From NCBI GenBank assembly GCA_025060475.1, contig JANXBZ010000003.1:1-49571 (forward strand): a stretch of DNA of 49,571 bases, read 5' to 3'. Shown piece after piece: positions 18,113 to 28,139 of the stretch. The notes beneath the pieces are model-generated. The model was not told the origin of the DNA and did not search any database. It was given only the letters and a program-made list of their open reading frames with translations. Each line of letters starts with the position of its first letter. Within the stretch, counting starts at the first letter, position 1. The position numbers and the translations under genes are program-made. This DNA comes from Dictyoglomus sp. (lineage in GTDB: Bacteria > Dictyoglomota > Dictyoglomia > Dictyoglomales > Dictyoglomaceae).

Positions 18113-18130
18113 TCGTGAAAAAAATAACGA
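18113..18130. promoter_or_regulatory. Candidate Rex operator before the ABC importer
   Basis: TCGTGA, six A, TAACGA: an inverted repeat of two 6-base half-sites around a 6-base spacer. It begins 4 bases after the -10 element and so covers the expected transcription start. The layout matches the known Rex site (TTGTKA, six bases, TMACAA) with one changed base per half-site. The same geometry occurs twice at 28108-28139 before the hydrogenase operon that ends in rex. The assignment to Rex is inferred. Confidence 0.5.
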
Positions 18131-18148: not shown

Positions 18149-19051
18149 TTGAAAAAAATAATATTGATATTGTTAGTTATTCTATTAATATCAAATCCTA
18201 ACTTAGCTTTTTCTAATAATCTTAAAAAAATAGAAGTATTAATTCCTTTAGGACCAAGTATTATACCTTTTGCCCCATTAATCTTAGAAAGTTCAGACTT
18301 TAACTTTACTATTTGGAGAACCATTGATGAATTAACTATCAGAGCAAGAGATAGTAAATATGATGTAATAATAGCTCCATTTATTACACTTGTTAATTTA
18401 TATAATAAGGGGGTAAATATTAAATATCTTGCTACTTTTAACTTTTCTGCCTTCTATTTAATTTCTAATAAAGCAAAAAAATTTGAAGAGCTAAAGGGAG
18501 AAACCTTGTATATAGCCCAAAAAGGTTCTACTCAAGATATTATCTTCAATATTTTTCTTCAGCAAACAGAATTAAAGGACAAAATAAATATCTACTACTC
18601 CACTCCTCAGGAAATAACATCATTATATATTTCTGGAAAAATAAATAATGCTCTATTACCCGAACCCTTTGTATCCATGTGTTTAGCTAAAAATGGAAGG
18701 ATACTCTTAGATATTCAGCAAGTATACAGATGGATTTCAAAAGGAAAATATCTGCCAATAACCTCTATTGCTATAAGGAGAGATTTAAATAAAAAAGATA
18801 TAGAAAGAATAGATAAACTATTTAGAGATAATTTTAAGAATCTAAATATGAATCCAGAAAATTATATCGAAAAATCCTCTAAAATTCTCAATATAGAAGG
18901 ACATATTATAAGATCATCCTTAAAGAGATTAGCTTTTAGATATCAAGGTTATTCTATAAAAAGAGATTTGTTAAACTTTTTAGAGTATATATATGAAAAA
19001 GCTCCTCAATTAATAGGAAATATTCCAGATGAGAACTTCTTTAAACTATAA
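18149..19051 (+). CDS. ABC importer substrate-binding protein, SsuA/ThiY-like
   Basis: 300 residues from TTG behind a TGGAGGTG site. Residues 1-22 form a Sec signal peptide (KKIILILLVILLIS, cleavage likely after AFS). There is no lipobox cysteine, so the protein is probably free or loosely held in the periplasm. The two-lobe fold is suggested by the NMT1/SsuA-like pattern: DVIIAPFITLVNLYNKGVNI, then KFEELKGETLYIAQKGSTQD and ALLPEPFVSMCL. Such proteins bind sulfonates, thiamine precursors, riboflavin or similar small molecules; the ligand cannot be read from sequence. It overlaps the permease gene by 23 bases. Confidence 0.75.
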   Translation: MKKIILILLVILLISNPNLAFSNNLKKIEVLIPLGPSIIPFAPLILESSDFNFTIWRTIDELTIRARDSKYDVIIAPFITLVNLYNKGVNIKYLATFNFSAFYLISNKAKKFEELKGETLYIAQKGSTQDIIFNIFLQQTELKDKINIYYSTPQEITSLYISGKINNALLPEPFVSMCLAKNGRILLDIQQVYRWISKGKYLPITSIAIRRDLNKKDIERIDKLFRDNFKNLNMNPENYIEKSSKILNIEGHIIRSSLKRLAFRYQGYSIKRDLLNFLEYIYEKAPQLIGNIPDENFFKL

Positions 19052-19784
19052 AATACTATTCTGGATATTATTTATAATTATATGGTACCTTATGGGGATG
19101 GTAATAAATTCAAATCTAATTCTTCCCTATCCTCATAAGGTACTTTATAAAATAATTGACTTATTGAAAAATCCTTACTTTTATCAACATTTAATAGCTA
19201 CAATGTTTAGAGGGATTATGGGACTTCTTCTAGCTTTAATCTTTGGCCTAATATTCGGAATTGTGAAAAATTCATATGTTCATAATAGCATAAGAAGTAT
19301 TATCGATTTATTTCAAAGTAATCCCTTAATTGTTTGGATAACTCTTGCTTTATTTTGGTTTGGTTTTGGAAATAAAACTATAATATTTATTGTTTTTGTT
19401 GTGCTTTTTCCTAATTTTTACCTAAATACTTATAACGCTATTAAAAATATACCTAGAGAATATATAGAGCTTTTTAAAATATATCCTGTTTGTAAAAAGA
19501 AGTATTTTTTTAAATTCTTAATTCCTTATCTGAAGCCTTTTTTATTACCTAGTTTTGCTATATCTATAGTTTCTTCTTTTAAAATATCAGCTATGGCAGA
19601 ATTTTTTTCGGGAGAAAAGGGAATTGGCTTTCTAATTAGTTATGCAAAGACTTTTCTAAATGTCGAGGAAGTCTATGCTTATGCCCTATTTCTTTTTCTT
19701 TTAAGTAAATCTTCTGAATTTATATTTCAAAGAACTGGTTTTTTAAGGGAGAGTGTTAAAAATGGTTTTTTTAAGATTAACTAA
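19029..19784 (+). CDS. ABC importer permease, SsuC-like
   Basis: 251 residues with about six membrane helices. The N-terminal LPYPHKVLYKI segment and the cytosolic EAA-type loop (IPREYIELFKIYPVCKKKYFFKFLIPYLKPFLLPS) are typical of the SsuC/TauC/ThiX family of inner-membrane permeases. The ATG lies inside the end of the binding-protein gene and the 3' end overlaps the ATPase gene, so the three are translated as a unit. The substrate is unknown. Confidence 0.78.
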   Translation: MRTSLNYKILFWILFIIIWYLMGMVINSNLILPYPHKVLYKIIDLLKNPYFYQHLIATMFRGIMGLLLALIFGLIFGIVKNSYVHNSIRSIIDLFQSNPLIVWITLALFWFGFGNKTIIFIVFVVLFPNFYLNTYNAIKNIPREYIELFKIYPVCKKKYFFKFLIPYLKPFLLPSFAISIVSSFKISAMAEFFSGEKGIGFLISYAKTFLNVEEVYAYALFLFLLSKSSEFIFQRTGFLRESVKNGFFKIN

Positions 19785-20336
19785 TATTAAAAAATCTTTC
19801 AATGGGAAGAAAGTTTTAAATGGAATCTTTTTAGAGATTAATAAGGGAGAAAGAATCATAATAAAAGGACCTAATGGAAGTGGAAAGACAACTTTATTAA
19901 AAATAATTGCTGGAATAATATCTCCTGATGAGGGTAGAATTGAATTTTTTGAGAAACCTCAAATATCTTTCCAATTCCAAGATCCCATATTTTTACCTTG
20001 GCTAAATATGGAGGAAAATTTAAAACTAACAGCAAAAGATATAAATATGCTTGAATTTCTTACAGAATATTTCAATCTTAAAGAGTATTTACATTTATAT
20101 CCTCAAGAACTCTCGGGAGGATATCAGCAAATTTTTTCCTTCATTAGGTCTTTTACCATACCTCATAATCTTCTAATACTAGACGAGCCTTTTAAGTCCT
20201 TAGATTCAAAGATTAAAAAAAAGGTAGAAGAATTTTTGAAGAAATATCTTGAGGATAAAAAAATATCCCTCTTGATGGTTAGCCACCAAGAGGGAATTGA
20301 AGAGAAAAATTTCTTTGATAGAATTTTTATTATTCC

Positions 20337-20340
<4 letters not shown>
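19762..20340 (+). CDS. ABC importer ATPase, SsuB-like, short
   Basis: 192 residues from the ATG at 19762, chosen over an in-frame GTG at 19753 because an AAGGGAGAG site stands 8 bases before the ATG. Walker A GPNGSGKTT, Q-loop FQFQDP, signature LSGGYQQ, Walker B LLILDEP and the switch histidine in VSHQEG are all present. It is about 50 residues shorter than usual SsuB proteins and ends soon after the H-loop, so it is compact rather than broken. It converges tail to tail with rex, the stop codons sharing four bases. Confidence 0.8.
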
Positions 20341-25327
<4,987 letters not shown>

Positions 25328-26467
25328 TTAGTAAGATTCAATTTTAACAATTTTCCCTTTTTTCTTTAATATTTCTGCTATATCCTGAATAACTCTAAAC
25401 TTAAGAGACATATCATAACTAAATAGTGGATTTTGATAAGTAGGGTTAATAGCTTTCCCAACAATAAAACAAATCTCGTCAGCTTTTTCTATAAAATCAA
25501 CAATAATACTTGCTCCATAACCTAAATTTTCTGTTTGTCCATTAAGATATCTAAAAACTTGTGTTAAAGTAATAATCCCCTCTGTTACTAAATCTATACC
25601 CTCCATATATCCTATAGGTGGAGAATTATCAGAAATAGTTTTCAAATCAAGCTCAACTTTTTTTCCTAGAATTTTTTCTACAATTTGTGCAGTAGTTCCT
25701 CCACATATCACCTTCCTTCCTGGCATACTTATGAATCTTTTAACTACGAATTCATCCAAAAAGGGATCCGAAGGAGGACCAACCATTACATTAACTTTAT
25801 TGAAAGTTCTAAAATGTAAGACACAACAAAGAGCATCGTCTCCCTTTACACCCTTATCAAGTTTTTTTGCTTTTTCAATCAAATGTTCAACTATTTCCTT
25901 AGGAGTCAATTTATACCTAATAAGATTAGTAATTTCCCTTTTAATATTCTCTACGCCTAATCCTAAAGGAAACAATTTTGTTCCTAATCCTGCTTGGGGA
26001 ACCCCATCAGTCATTACGAATAAGAAATCATCTTCTAAGGGTACAAAGAAGCTTTCTTTTATTTCTTTGCCTTCAATAATATTCTTTTTCTTTTCTAGCT
26101 CTACAAATTCCTTTTTGCGAAACAATAGAACTAAAGGAAATTCATACTCTGCTATATAGCATGTTTTATCTAATGATTTAAAAAGAATACTACAAAAATT
26201 CGCATAACTTATGTCTCTTATTTTACATTTTGGAAGAGTGGATAATATACTTTTCATCACTTCTTCTAAAGGCATATCATTGAACAACATGGTGGTGGCT
26301 AAAGAAGCGGTAAGAGTAGAAAGAATACTCGCTTTTATTCCACTTCCAAGACCATCAGAGACAGTAACTACTACTTTATCTTCATTTCTTTTTATTTTTA
26401 TAGAATCTCCACAAACTTCTTCTCCTTCTTTATTTTTGAAGGCAAAAACTACCTCACAAGTCAGCAT
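25328..26467 (-). CDS. SpoIIE/RsbU-type PP2C serine phosphatase
   Basis: 379 residues. The PP2C metal motifs are visible: GDSIKI near 20-25, VTVSDGLGSG near 34-43, FVMTDGVPQAG near 150-160 and KGDDALCCVL near 205-215. A C-terminal domain of about 150 residues follows. It holds a conserved-looking VICGGTTAQIVEKILG segment, whose function I cannot name. No transmembrane segment is seen. Its start overlaps the sensory hydrogenase gene by 14 bases, so the two are probably made together and may form one signalling unit. Such phosphatases often act on anti-sigma-antagonist proteins; no partner is encoded beside it. Confidence 0.82.
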   Translation of the reverse strand: MLTCEVVFAFKNKEGEEVCGDSIKIKRNEDKVVVTVSDGLGSGIKASILSTLTASLATTMLFNDMPLEEVMKSILSTLPKCKIRDISYANFCSILFKSLDKTCYIAEYEFPLVLLFRKKEFVELEKKKNIIEGKEIKESFFVPLEDDFLFVMTDGVPQAGLGTKLFPLGLGVENIKREITNLIRYKLTPKEIVEHLIEKAKKLDKGVKGDDALCCVLHFRTFNKVNVMVGPPSDPFLDEFVVKRFISMPGRKVICGGTTAQIVEKILGKKVELDLKTISDNSPPIGYMEGIDLVTEGIITLTQVFRYLNGQTENLGYGASIIVDFIEKADEICFIVGKAINPTYQNPLFSYDMSLKFRVIQDIAEILKKKGKIVKIESY

Positions 26468-28091
26468 CTTCTTCTAACACCTTCCTAAACTGTACAAAAT
26501 AGCTTTTTGTTTCAGCAATAGATTCTCCCAAAAGACTTGCAATTTCTTGAGCAAGAAGCATCTGCCTATTTATCAATTCCTCTATTTTCTCCGCACTTTC
26601 TTTTTTCAATCTTTTGAGTTCTTCTTCTTTTTTCTTTTCCTTAGTAATATCTAAGAGTAATGCTACTTTTCCATGTCCATCAGGTAGTTCAAAGGTTTTA
26701 ACAAAAAAGTAATAATGCTCATCATCTACTGAGATTTCTATTGAGTTTTTTCCACTTTCTATTTCCTCGATTACAAAATCTAAAAGAGGTTCTTTATTAT
26801 AAAAGAAATCTTCTCCAGAAGGATTTATATATATGGGTTTATTATTTTTGTTATAAATAATAATGATGTTTGGAAACTCTTCTATAATTGCATTACTAAC
26901 TGAACTTACCTTATCAATCAAATAAGTAATACACATTTCTTTCTCTGCTTTTCCTAAAACTACAGCTACAGCTTTTTCTCTGCAAGTTGAATATCCACAA
27001 GCACCGCAATTTAGCTCTTTTTTAGAATTCTCTTTTCCCATCTCTATCAAAATTTTTCTGATTTTATCTTCTGATACTTCTATGACATTTTTTTTAGGAG
27101 AAAAAATTCTCTTTATGTCGTCAATAAATTGAAAGCTTGAGAAATTATTAGGTTTTTCTATTTCTTTGAGTTGTTCTGCATAACTAATAATTCTCTTTCT
27201 TTTCTCTAAAATACCTATATCTTTTCTTATAGCTGGTCCGTTTATACAGCCTCCAAAACATGCTGTAGCTTCTATTACGAAACCCTCTTTATAAGACTTA
27301 ATGTTTTCAAAAATCTTTGCTATATTTTCTACCCCTTCTACAACCATATGATTTATCCAGTCTCCTTCTAGAGTGAAGTTTATGCCTCCACTTATGGGAT
27401 AAAATCTACCTTTATCAGGGTATGGAGGAGTGGGATAACTCGTTTCTAAGCTGACAATATCTATATTATTTTTTTCTATATAATTTTCTAGTTCTTCATA
27501 AGTTAAGACTAAATCTACATATTCTTCTCCATCTTTTTTCTTTGCTATACATGGTCCTATATACATTACAGGAAAATTTCCAAAATATCTCTTCATGAAC
27601 AATGAATGTACATTCATTGGAGACAAAAAAGGAGAAAGATAAGGGATGACCTCTGGATAGTATTTCTCTGCCATATCAAAAACTACGGGACAAGATGTAG
27701 TGATCATGGTTTTATTTTTATTTTTTTTGATAAAGTCTCTATAATATCTAGAAATTATCTCAGCTCCTACAGCAGTTTCTTGTACTGCAATAGCTCCTAG
27801 GCTTTTTAAAAAAGTAATAATTTTGAGTGGCTCGTCAAAATGAGCAAAAAATGATGGTGCTATGGAGACCAAAAAAGGCTTATCTTTTAGTTCATATAAA
27901 ATATGTATACTTTTTGTATAGGTTCTTGCCCTCTGAGGACATATTTCTATACAGTTTCCACATAAAATGCATTCATCATCCATAACGTATGATTTTCCTT
28001 TGTTAAACATTATCGCTTTGACAGGACAGTTTCTAAGACATTTATAACAATATTGACAGTTAGTTTCTTTTGTTAAGATTAATTTTCCCAT
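26454..28091 (-). CDS. Sensory [FeFe]-hydrogenase-like protein with PAS domain
   Basis: 545 residues. Two [4Fe-4S] clusters at C12-C22 and C41-C51. An H-cluster domain follows with four ligand cysteines C134, C181, C278 and C282. The first motif reads TTSCP, so the cysteine used for proton transfer in catalytic enzymes is Ser133. The third motif reads ATACFGGCINGPA, without the GGGQP end. A further Fe-S module (CGACGYSTC at 362-370, C387), a PAS-like domain (about 400-500) and a coiled coil (about 500-530) come next. There is no membrane segment or kinase domain. The layout matches the HydS group of putative H2 sensors. First gene of the operon, behind AGGAG. Confidence 0.88.
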   Translation of the reverse strand: MGKLILTKETNCQYCYKCLRNCPVKAIMFNKGKSYVMDDECILCGNCIEICPQRARTYTKSIHILYELKDKPFLVSIAPSFFAHFDEPLKIITFLKSLGAIAVQETAVGAEIISRYYRDFIKKNKNKTMITTSCPVVFDMAEKYYPEVIPYLSPFLSPMNVHSLFMKRYFGNFPVMYIGPCIAKKKDGEEYVDLVLTYEELENYIEKNNIDIVSLETSYPTPPYPDKGRFYPISGGINFTLEGDWINHMVVEGVENIAKIFENIKSYKEGFVIEATACFGGCINGPAIRKDIGILEKRKRIISYAEQLKEIEKPNNFSSFQFIDDIKRIFSPKKNVIEVSEDKIRKILIEMGKENSKKELNCGACGYSTCREKAVAVVLGKAEKEMCITYLIDKVSSVSNAIIEEFPNIIIIYNKNNKPIYINPSGEDFFYNKEPLLDFVIEEIESGKNSIEISVDDEHYYFFVKTFELPDGHGKVALLLDITKEKKKEEELKRLKKESAEKIEELINRQMLLAQEIASLLGESIAETKSYFVQFRKVLEEDADL

Positions 28092-28107: not shown

Positions 28108-28139
28108 TTGTTATTTTTTTAACGTTATTTTTTTCACAA
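28108..28139. promoter_or_regulatory. Two overlapping candidate Rex operators
   Basis: The sequence reads TTGTTA, six T, TAACGTTA, six T, TCACAA. Site 1 is 28108-28125 (TTGTTA/TAACGT) and site 2 is 28122-28139 (ACGTTA/TCACAA). Both have two 6-base half-sites around a 6-base spacer, and they share the central palindrome TAACGTTA. The centres are 14 bases apart. The block lies 17 bases before the sensory hydrogenase start and overlaps the expected transcription start. Because the operon ends in rex, autoregulation by NADH/NAD+ is the likely meaning. Confidence 0.65.

Follow-up and report, generated by a model that had tools for sequence, protein, structure and literature searches.

HydS, a sensory [FeFe]-hydrogenase-like protein, and the PP2C-type phosphatase encoded directly behind it probably form a two-protein module of the group C3 type, in which the H2 or redox state would be read by HydS and passed through its PAS domain and C-terminal helix to the phosphatase, and from there to a phosphoprotein that is not a STAS protein. 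The ligand, the direction of the switch and the target of the module are what we infer from this arrangement. The two genes lie in a window of 49,571 nucleotides (the whole stretch of DNA that was analysed) from Dictyoglomus sp., a heat-loving, hydrogen-making bacterium. They are the first two genes of a six-gene operon on the minus strand (28091-20337), with the order hydS-PP2C-hydC-hydB-hydA-rex, which is preceded by Rex-type operators and closed by a terminator. The features of this region are the following:

28109..28138, minus strand: two adjacent Rex-type palindromes, CGTTAAAAAAATAACA and TGTGAAAAAAATAACG, upstream of hydS (pattern search; putative Rex binding)
26454..28091, minus strand: hydS, group C sensory [FeFe]-hydrogenase-like protein of 545 aa, made up, in order, of two [4Fe-4S] motifs, H-domain, C-terminal FeS motif, degenerate PAS and helix (Pfam, alignment, profile match)
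27234..27878, minus strand: H-domain of HydS, residues 72-286 (Pfam PF02906, E 1.5e-43; invariant Cys)
26457..26909, minus strand: PAS and C-terminal helix (HydS residues 395-545), the likely docking element for the phosphatase (relatives, profile match)
26454..26467, minus strand: 14-nt overlap of the hydS stop and the phosphatase start, translational coupling (coordinates)
25328..26467, minus strand: SpoIIE/RsbX-type PP2C phosphatase of 379 aa (Pfam PF07228, E 2.1e-15; AF2 model against PP2C structures)
25328..25804, minus strand: uncharacterised domain at the C-terminus of the phosphatase, residues ~222-379 (conserved in 25 homologues; AF2)
24821..25312, minus strand: hydC (NuoE-like) of the bifurcating hydrogenase
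22957..24834, minus strand: hydB (NuoF-like) of the bifurcating hydrogenase
20944..22941, minus strand: hydA, NADH-dependent [FeFe] hydrogenase, best match to a group A6/A3-like model, H-cluster motifs intact
20337..20981, minus strand: rex, NADH/NAD+-sensing repressor (NCBIfam, E 3.2e-92)
20266..20295, minus strand: intrinsic-terminator-like hairpin behind rex, with a 13-pair stem and a U tract

An earlier note on this DNA had placed overlapping genes for a sensor and a SpoIIE-type phosphatase at 25328-28091 with no kinase, anti-sigma factor or antagonist beside them, and both the coordinates and the absence of such genes next to the pair have been confirmed. The Rfam search of the operon gave no match. 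The same gene order recurs in other Dictyoglomaceae and in Thermotogota, so the pair is more than a chance association.

The pairing itself was examined with a profile built from four of the phosphatases, which was searched in 290 genomes and yielded about 23 full-length homologues, well apart from generic SpoIIE matches. Together with the named loci and a single metagenomic contig, this search gave 25 loci with a readable upstream gene, and in all of them the long phosphatase is encoded directly behind a partner that ends in PAS and a helix with the consensus EIAxLLGExxAETK. The two genes touch or overlap (-32 to about +30 nt, over-long predicted starts allowed for), and the distance matrices of phosphatase and partner are correlated (r=0.91, 0/2000 permutations, 24 pairs), part of which reflects shared species history. 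In the converse search of the 290 genomes, every HydS that matches through the helix has the phosphatase adjoining it, contig ends apart, the PAS/helix region of one carrier (L068) being too divergent for the model. The group C HydS proteins of genomes that do not encode the phosphatase hold C-terminal histidine kinase or sigma-54 activator domains. The flow from sensor to phosphatase that the earlier note had proposed is thus supported by the adjacency in 25/25 loci, and it agrees with the hypothesis published for group C3 (PMC5037454, PMC6776011).

A full HydS serves as the partner in 19 of the 25 loci. In five others (L058, L059, L060, L061 and L064) it is a protein of ~170 aa with PAS and helix only, and in L069 it consists of FeS, two PAS and the helix, the H-domain being absent from all six. 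From these comparisons, it is concluded that the PAS plus helix would be the dedicated partner of the phosphatase and the H-domain a sensor head that can be exchanged. Since the helix is kept in the six loci where the H-domain is missing, it is likely the phosphatase-docking element, with the hydrogenase head being optional, and H2 binding is not obligatory for the module. Several of these six loci still adjoin hydrogenase genes, mostly with a gene for a small [2Fe-2S] HfsA-like protein ahead. A different architecture, in which a group C HydS is joined to a sigma-54 activator AAA+ domain and an HTH of the Fis type, is found in three proteins (L089 1495-3762, L090 108-2363, and L100 448-2730); this output is not among HydDB groups C1-C3 and may represent a one-component H2-responsive enhancer-binding protein.

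HydS of the window is recognized by the Pfam models Fe_hyd_lg_C (1.5e-43), FeS (PF04060, 3.7e-10), and 4Fe-4S dicluster (1.1e-7). It had been correctly noted that this protein keeps the four H-cluster ligand cysteines (C134, C181, C278, and C282, which are invariant among close relatives) and has lost the GGGQP motif, in whose place CINGPAIRK is found. The N-terminal [4Fe-4S] motifs correspond to C12/15/18/22 and C41/44/47/51, and a C-terminal Cx2Cx4Cx16C motif typical of sensory enzymes (C362/C365/C370/C387), absent from the earlier note, completes the set. TmHydS from Thermotoga maritima, which takes up an H-cluster (PMC10055695), likewise presents two N-terminal [4Fe-4S] motifs, an H-domain and a C-terminal FeS motif, and its PAS domain has a probable counterpart in the degenerate PAS of the window protein. 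Both proteins hold Gly at the M353 position (Gly179 in the window), while they differ at the proton-relay site (Ser133 versus Ala131 in TmHydS) and at the M497 position (Thr276 versus Ser267). Ser133, directly before C134, had been singled out as an informative replacement of the relay cysteine, a view that does not hold: the three closest relatives have Ala in this position, and sensory enzymes show Ala in ~43% and Ser in only ~10% of cases (PMC10055695). The description of HydS as a PAS protein without a kinase was right about the kinase, while the PAS of the window protein escaped Pfam. Nevertheless, three of eight close relatives show a weak Pfam PAS_8 match, and the region matches by profile the shorter partner proteins that do have a Pfam PAS (99.4%, E 2e-21), which supports a homologous PAS domain too degenerate for Pfam.

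The motifs of HydS suggest that it carries an H-cluster. The main weakness of the case for the putative H2 sensing by HydS is that the maturase HydF (TIGR03918) was undetected in the genome of the organism (99.6% complete), though the H-cluster motifs of hydA are intact; the matches to this model are other GTPases, with MnmE, Der, HflX, FeoB and Obg recognized by eye among those inspected. Since hydA keeps these motifs, some maturation route is expected. The literature search found nothing on Dictyoglomus with HydE or HydF. The missing maturase also fits a tentative reading, less probable than H2 or redox sensing through HydS, in which the module would sense the reduction of ferredoxin or FeS clusters and not H2, with the H-domain being a relic or an electron-relay surface. 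The five partners with PAS and helix only and the one with FeS, two PAS and helix, all devoid of the H-domain, are in line with it, as is the finding that a group D relative has a C-terminal cluster unresponsive to H2 (PMC13104023). However, the invariance of the four H-cluster cysteines among close relatives speaks against this reading, TmHydS is catalytically active with Ala at the relay position (PMC10055695), and the hydA of the same operon would need maturation as well.

Both the sequence and the predicted structure (AF2 pLDDT 85.6) identify residues 1-220 of the phosphatase as a SpoIIE/RsbX-type PP2C, and the best PDB matches of this part of the model are PP2C phosphatases (E 7.7e-14). 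The metal-site aspartates D21, D38, D154 and D210/D211 are invariant in 25 sequences. The extra C-terminal domain that had been claimed for this protein is real: residues ~222-379 are predicted to form a separate alpha/beta domain of ~155 residues (AF2 pLDDT 85.6, pTM 0.83, from a five-sequence alignment), and its motifs GPP, CGGTT, PP and LVTEG are among the best-conserved stretches of the phosphatase in the 25 homologues. Pfam gave no match to this domain in the window protein, and one weak sub-threshold match (NBD_C) appeared in one distant member. A known fold was sought and rejected, as no PDB structure matched at E<=1e-3, the best TM scores (about 0.4) corresponding to UbiX- and Rossmann-like proteins. 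The domain, undescribed in the literature searched, could recognise the substrate.

The earlier note had looked to STAS-domain proteins elsewhere in the genome for the target, and the search for them gave a negative answer. The genome (1.72 Mb, 99.56% complete) encodes the window phosphatase as its single SpoIIE-domain protein, and neither STAS nor STAS_2 had any match in it. Both are also absent from four sampled family members and two carriers of other families. These seven STAS-free genomes are about 98-99.6% complete and six of them carry the pair, while other carriers do have STAS proteins.

The lack of a STAS protein, together with the operon shared with hydCBA in Dictyoglomaceae and Thermotogota, would also be compatible with a phosphatase that acts directly on HydABC or another metabolic enzyme instead of on a transcriptional partner switch. 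In Thermoanaerobacterium saccharolyticum, NADH-ADH activity shifts beyond what adhE expression explains (PMC5707799), as such a control would predict. This explanation is regarded as rather unlikely, as the pair lies away from hydABC in several genomes (e.g., L064 and L068), and the target phosphosite is hypothetical here.

Only one SpoIIAB/RsbW-type HATPase (HATPase_c_2) was above cut-off in the genome, and it is fused to CBS domains. It is encoded in a second hydrogenase-type operon (L019 4776-12008; G000:C1, minus strand), which comprises DRTGG, CBS-HATPase, group D HydS, DRTGG, DRTGG-like, PHP, HydC, HATPase, 2Fe-2S, and HydB. HydA is missing from this operon, and what follows resembles an MFS transporter gene. 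A genome of the same genus (99% complete) lacks the pair and retains the operon of group D HydS and CBS-HATPase. A quite improbable arrangement would place two H2 sensors on opposite arms of a STAS-free phospho-switch, where the CBS-HATPase beside the group D HydS would phosphorylate a non-STAS acceptor, for instance a DRTGG protein, and the phosphatase driven by the C3 HydS would reverse this, its C-terminal domain recognising the acceptor. The group-D-linked HATPase occurs in 9/22 carriers of the pair versus 35/268 other genomes, a difference confounded by relatedness and anaerobic lifestyle that is not evidence, and no literature linking SpoIIE, hydrogenase and DRTGG was found. The dephosphorylation of an RsbV/SpoIIAA-type STAS antagonist to free a sigma factor is the usual role of SpoIIE/RsbU-type PP2Cs, and STAS proteins do exist in other carriers, but the absence of STAS and STAS_2 from this genome and the six others makes such partner switching highly improbable and largely refutes it for the organism studied here.

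Transcription of the operon may be governed by the redox state as well. Each of the two palindromes at 28109-28138 has one mismatch to CGTKA-N6-TMACG. Dictyoglomaceae, Thermotogota and two other families have this pattern ahead of their hydS operons, and the 388 kb of loci contain 13 exact matches, each of them in front of either the hydS operon or the ABC-transporter operon beside rex. Exact palindromes were present in 7/23 upstream regions versus none in 200 shuffles, and palindromes with at most one mismatch in 10/23 versus a shuffle mean of 0.46. The window contains an exact site at 18114-18129, the chance expectation for the pattern over the whole window being 0.06. This site precedes an ABC-transporter operon next to rex (18149-20340), which encodes a DUF3834-like binding protein, a permease and an ATPase; the corresponding gene in L051-L053 is preceded by the same Rex-type palindrome. 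The classic pattern TTGTKAA-N4-TTMACAA, with three mismatches allowed, was no commoner than chance and was discarded. The core of the window palindromes, GTKA-N6-TMAC, has the same spacing as the T. saccharolyticum Rex motif TTGTTA-N6-TAAC, a site for which is predicted ahead of hfsABCD (PMC5886521). Judging from these motifs, Rex would bind the palindromes and probably represses its own operon at low NADH.

By gene context (a linked phosphatase and no fused or adjacent kinase), the pair belongs to a known kind, group C3 of HydDB, whose members are phosphatase-linked and putatively sense H2 via Ser/Thr phosphatases (PMC5037454). As in the window, where the PAS is degenerate, a PAS-bearing HydS without a kinase is followed there directly by a Ser/Thr PP2C, the definition of the group resting solely on sequence and gene context. 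HfsB/HfsC, from the hfsABCD operon of Thermoanaerobacterium, and HydS of Ruminococcus albus show the same order of HydS-PAS and phosphatase in a hydrogenase operon. For R. albus, this pair has been proposed as an H2 sensor, with a strong change of expression with H2 conditions (PMC6776011). In T. saccharolyticum, ethanol yield changes along with adhE expression and ADH activity in hfsA/hfsB deletions, and loss of hfsB raises hydrogenase activity (PMC5707799). Like the window operon, hfs has a predicted Rex site in front (PMC5886521). In contrast to hfsABCD, the window pair shares its operon with the bifurcating hydCBA and rex, and no gene for a separate HfsA-like [2Fe-2S] protein precedes it in the window. 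The C-terminal phosphatase domain, the docking helix, the variants without H-domain and the STAS-free carriers were not found in the literature searched.

According to these data, the preferred mechanism is that HydS, with a putative H-cluster and its FeS clusters, senses the H2 or redox state, which may shift the conformation of the PAS domain and the C-terminal helix. The helix would contact the PP2C encoded by the overlapping gene and alter its activity in trans, as the obligate pairing suggests. RsbU and RsbP are controlled through a coiled coil (PMC12143880), and the proposed control would parallel on two chains this in-cis PAS-coiled-coil regulation. Like RsbP, RsbU and SpoIIE, the system combines a PP2C fold with a putative regulatory input of PAS plus helix, whereas it differs from them in having sensor and phosphatase on separate chains, an extra C-terminal domain and a STAS-free genome. 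The phosphatase would then dephosphorylate a Ser/Thr protein other than a recognisable STAS antagonist, the likely outcome being the tuning of hydrogenase and fermentation output alongside Rex. The pairing, the correlated distances, the invariant aspartates, the PP2C fold and the hydrogenase operon with Rex operators argue for a sensor-phosphatase module; the undetected HydF, the degenerate PAS, the partners without H-domain and the share of common history in the correlation argue against it, and both interaction and activity are predictions from sequence.

The signal output of group C sensory [FeFe]-hydrogenases is a matter for H2 biology and for ethanol/H2 engineering, as in the hfsB mutants. 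The invariant part of this sensor is its C-terminal helix and not the hydrogenase head, which narrows the question of that output, and the genomes that carry the pair but lack STAS proteins and have one SpoIIE protein only offer clean settings for finding the true substrate.
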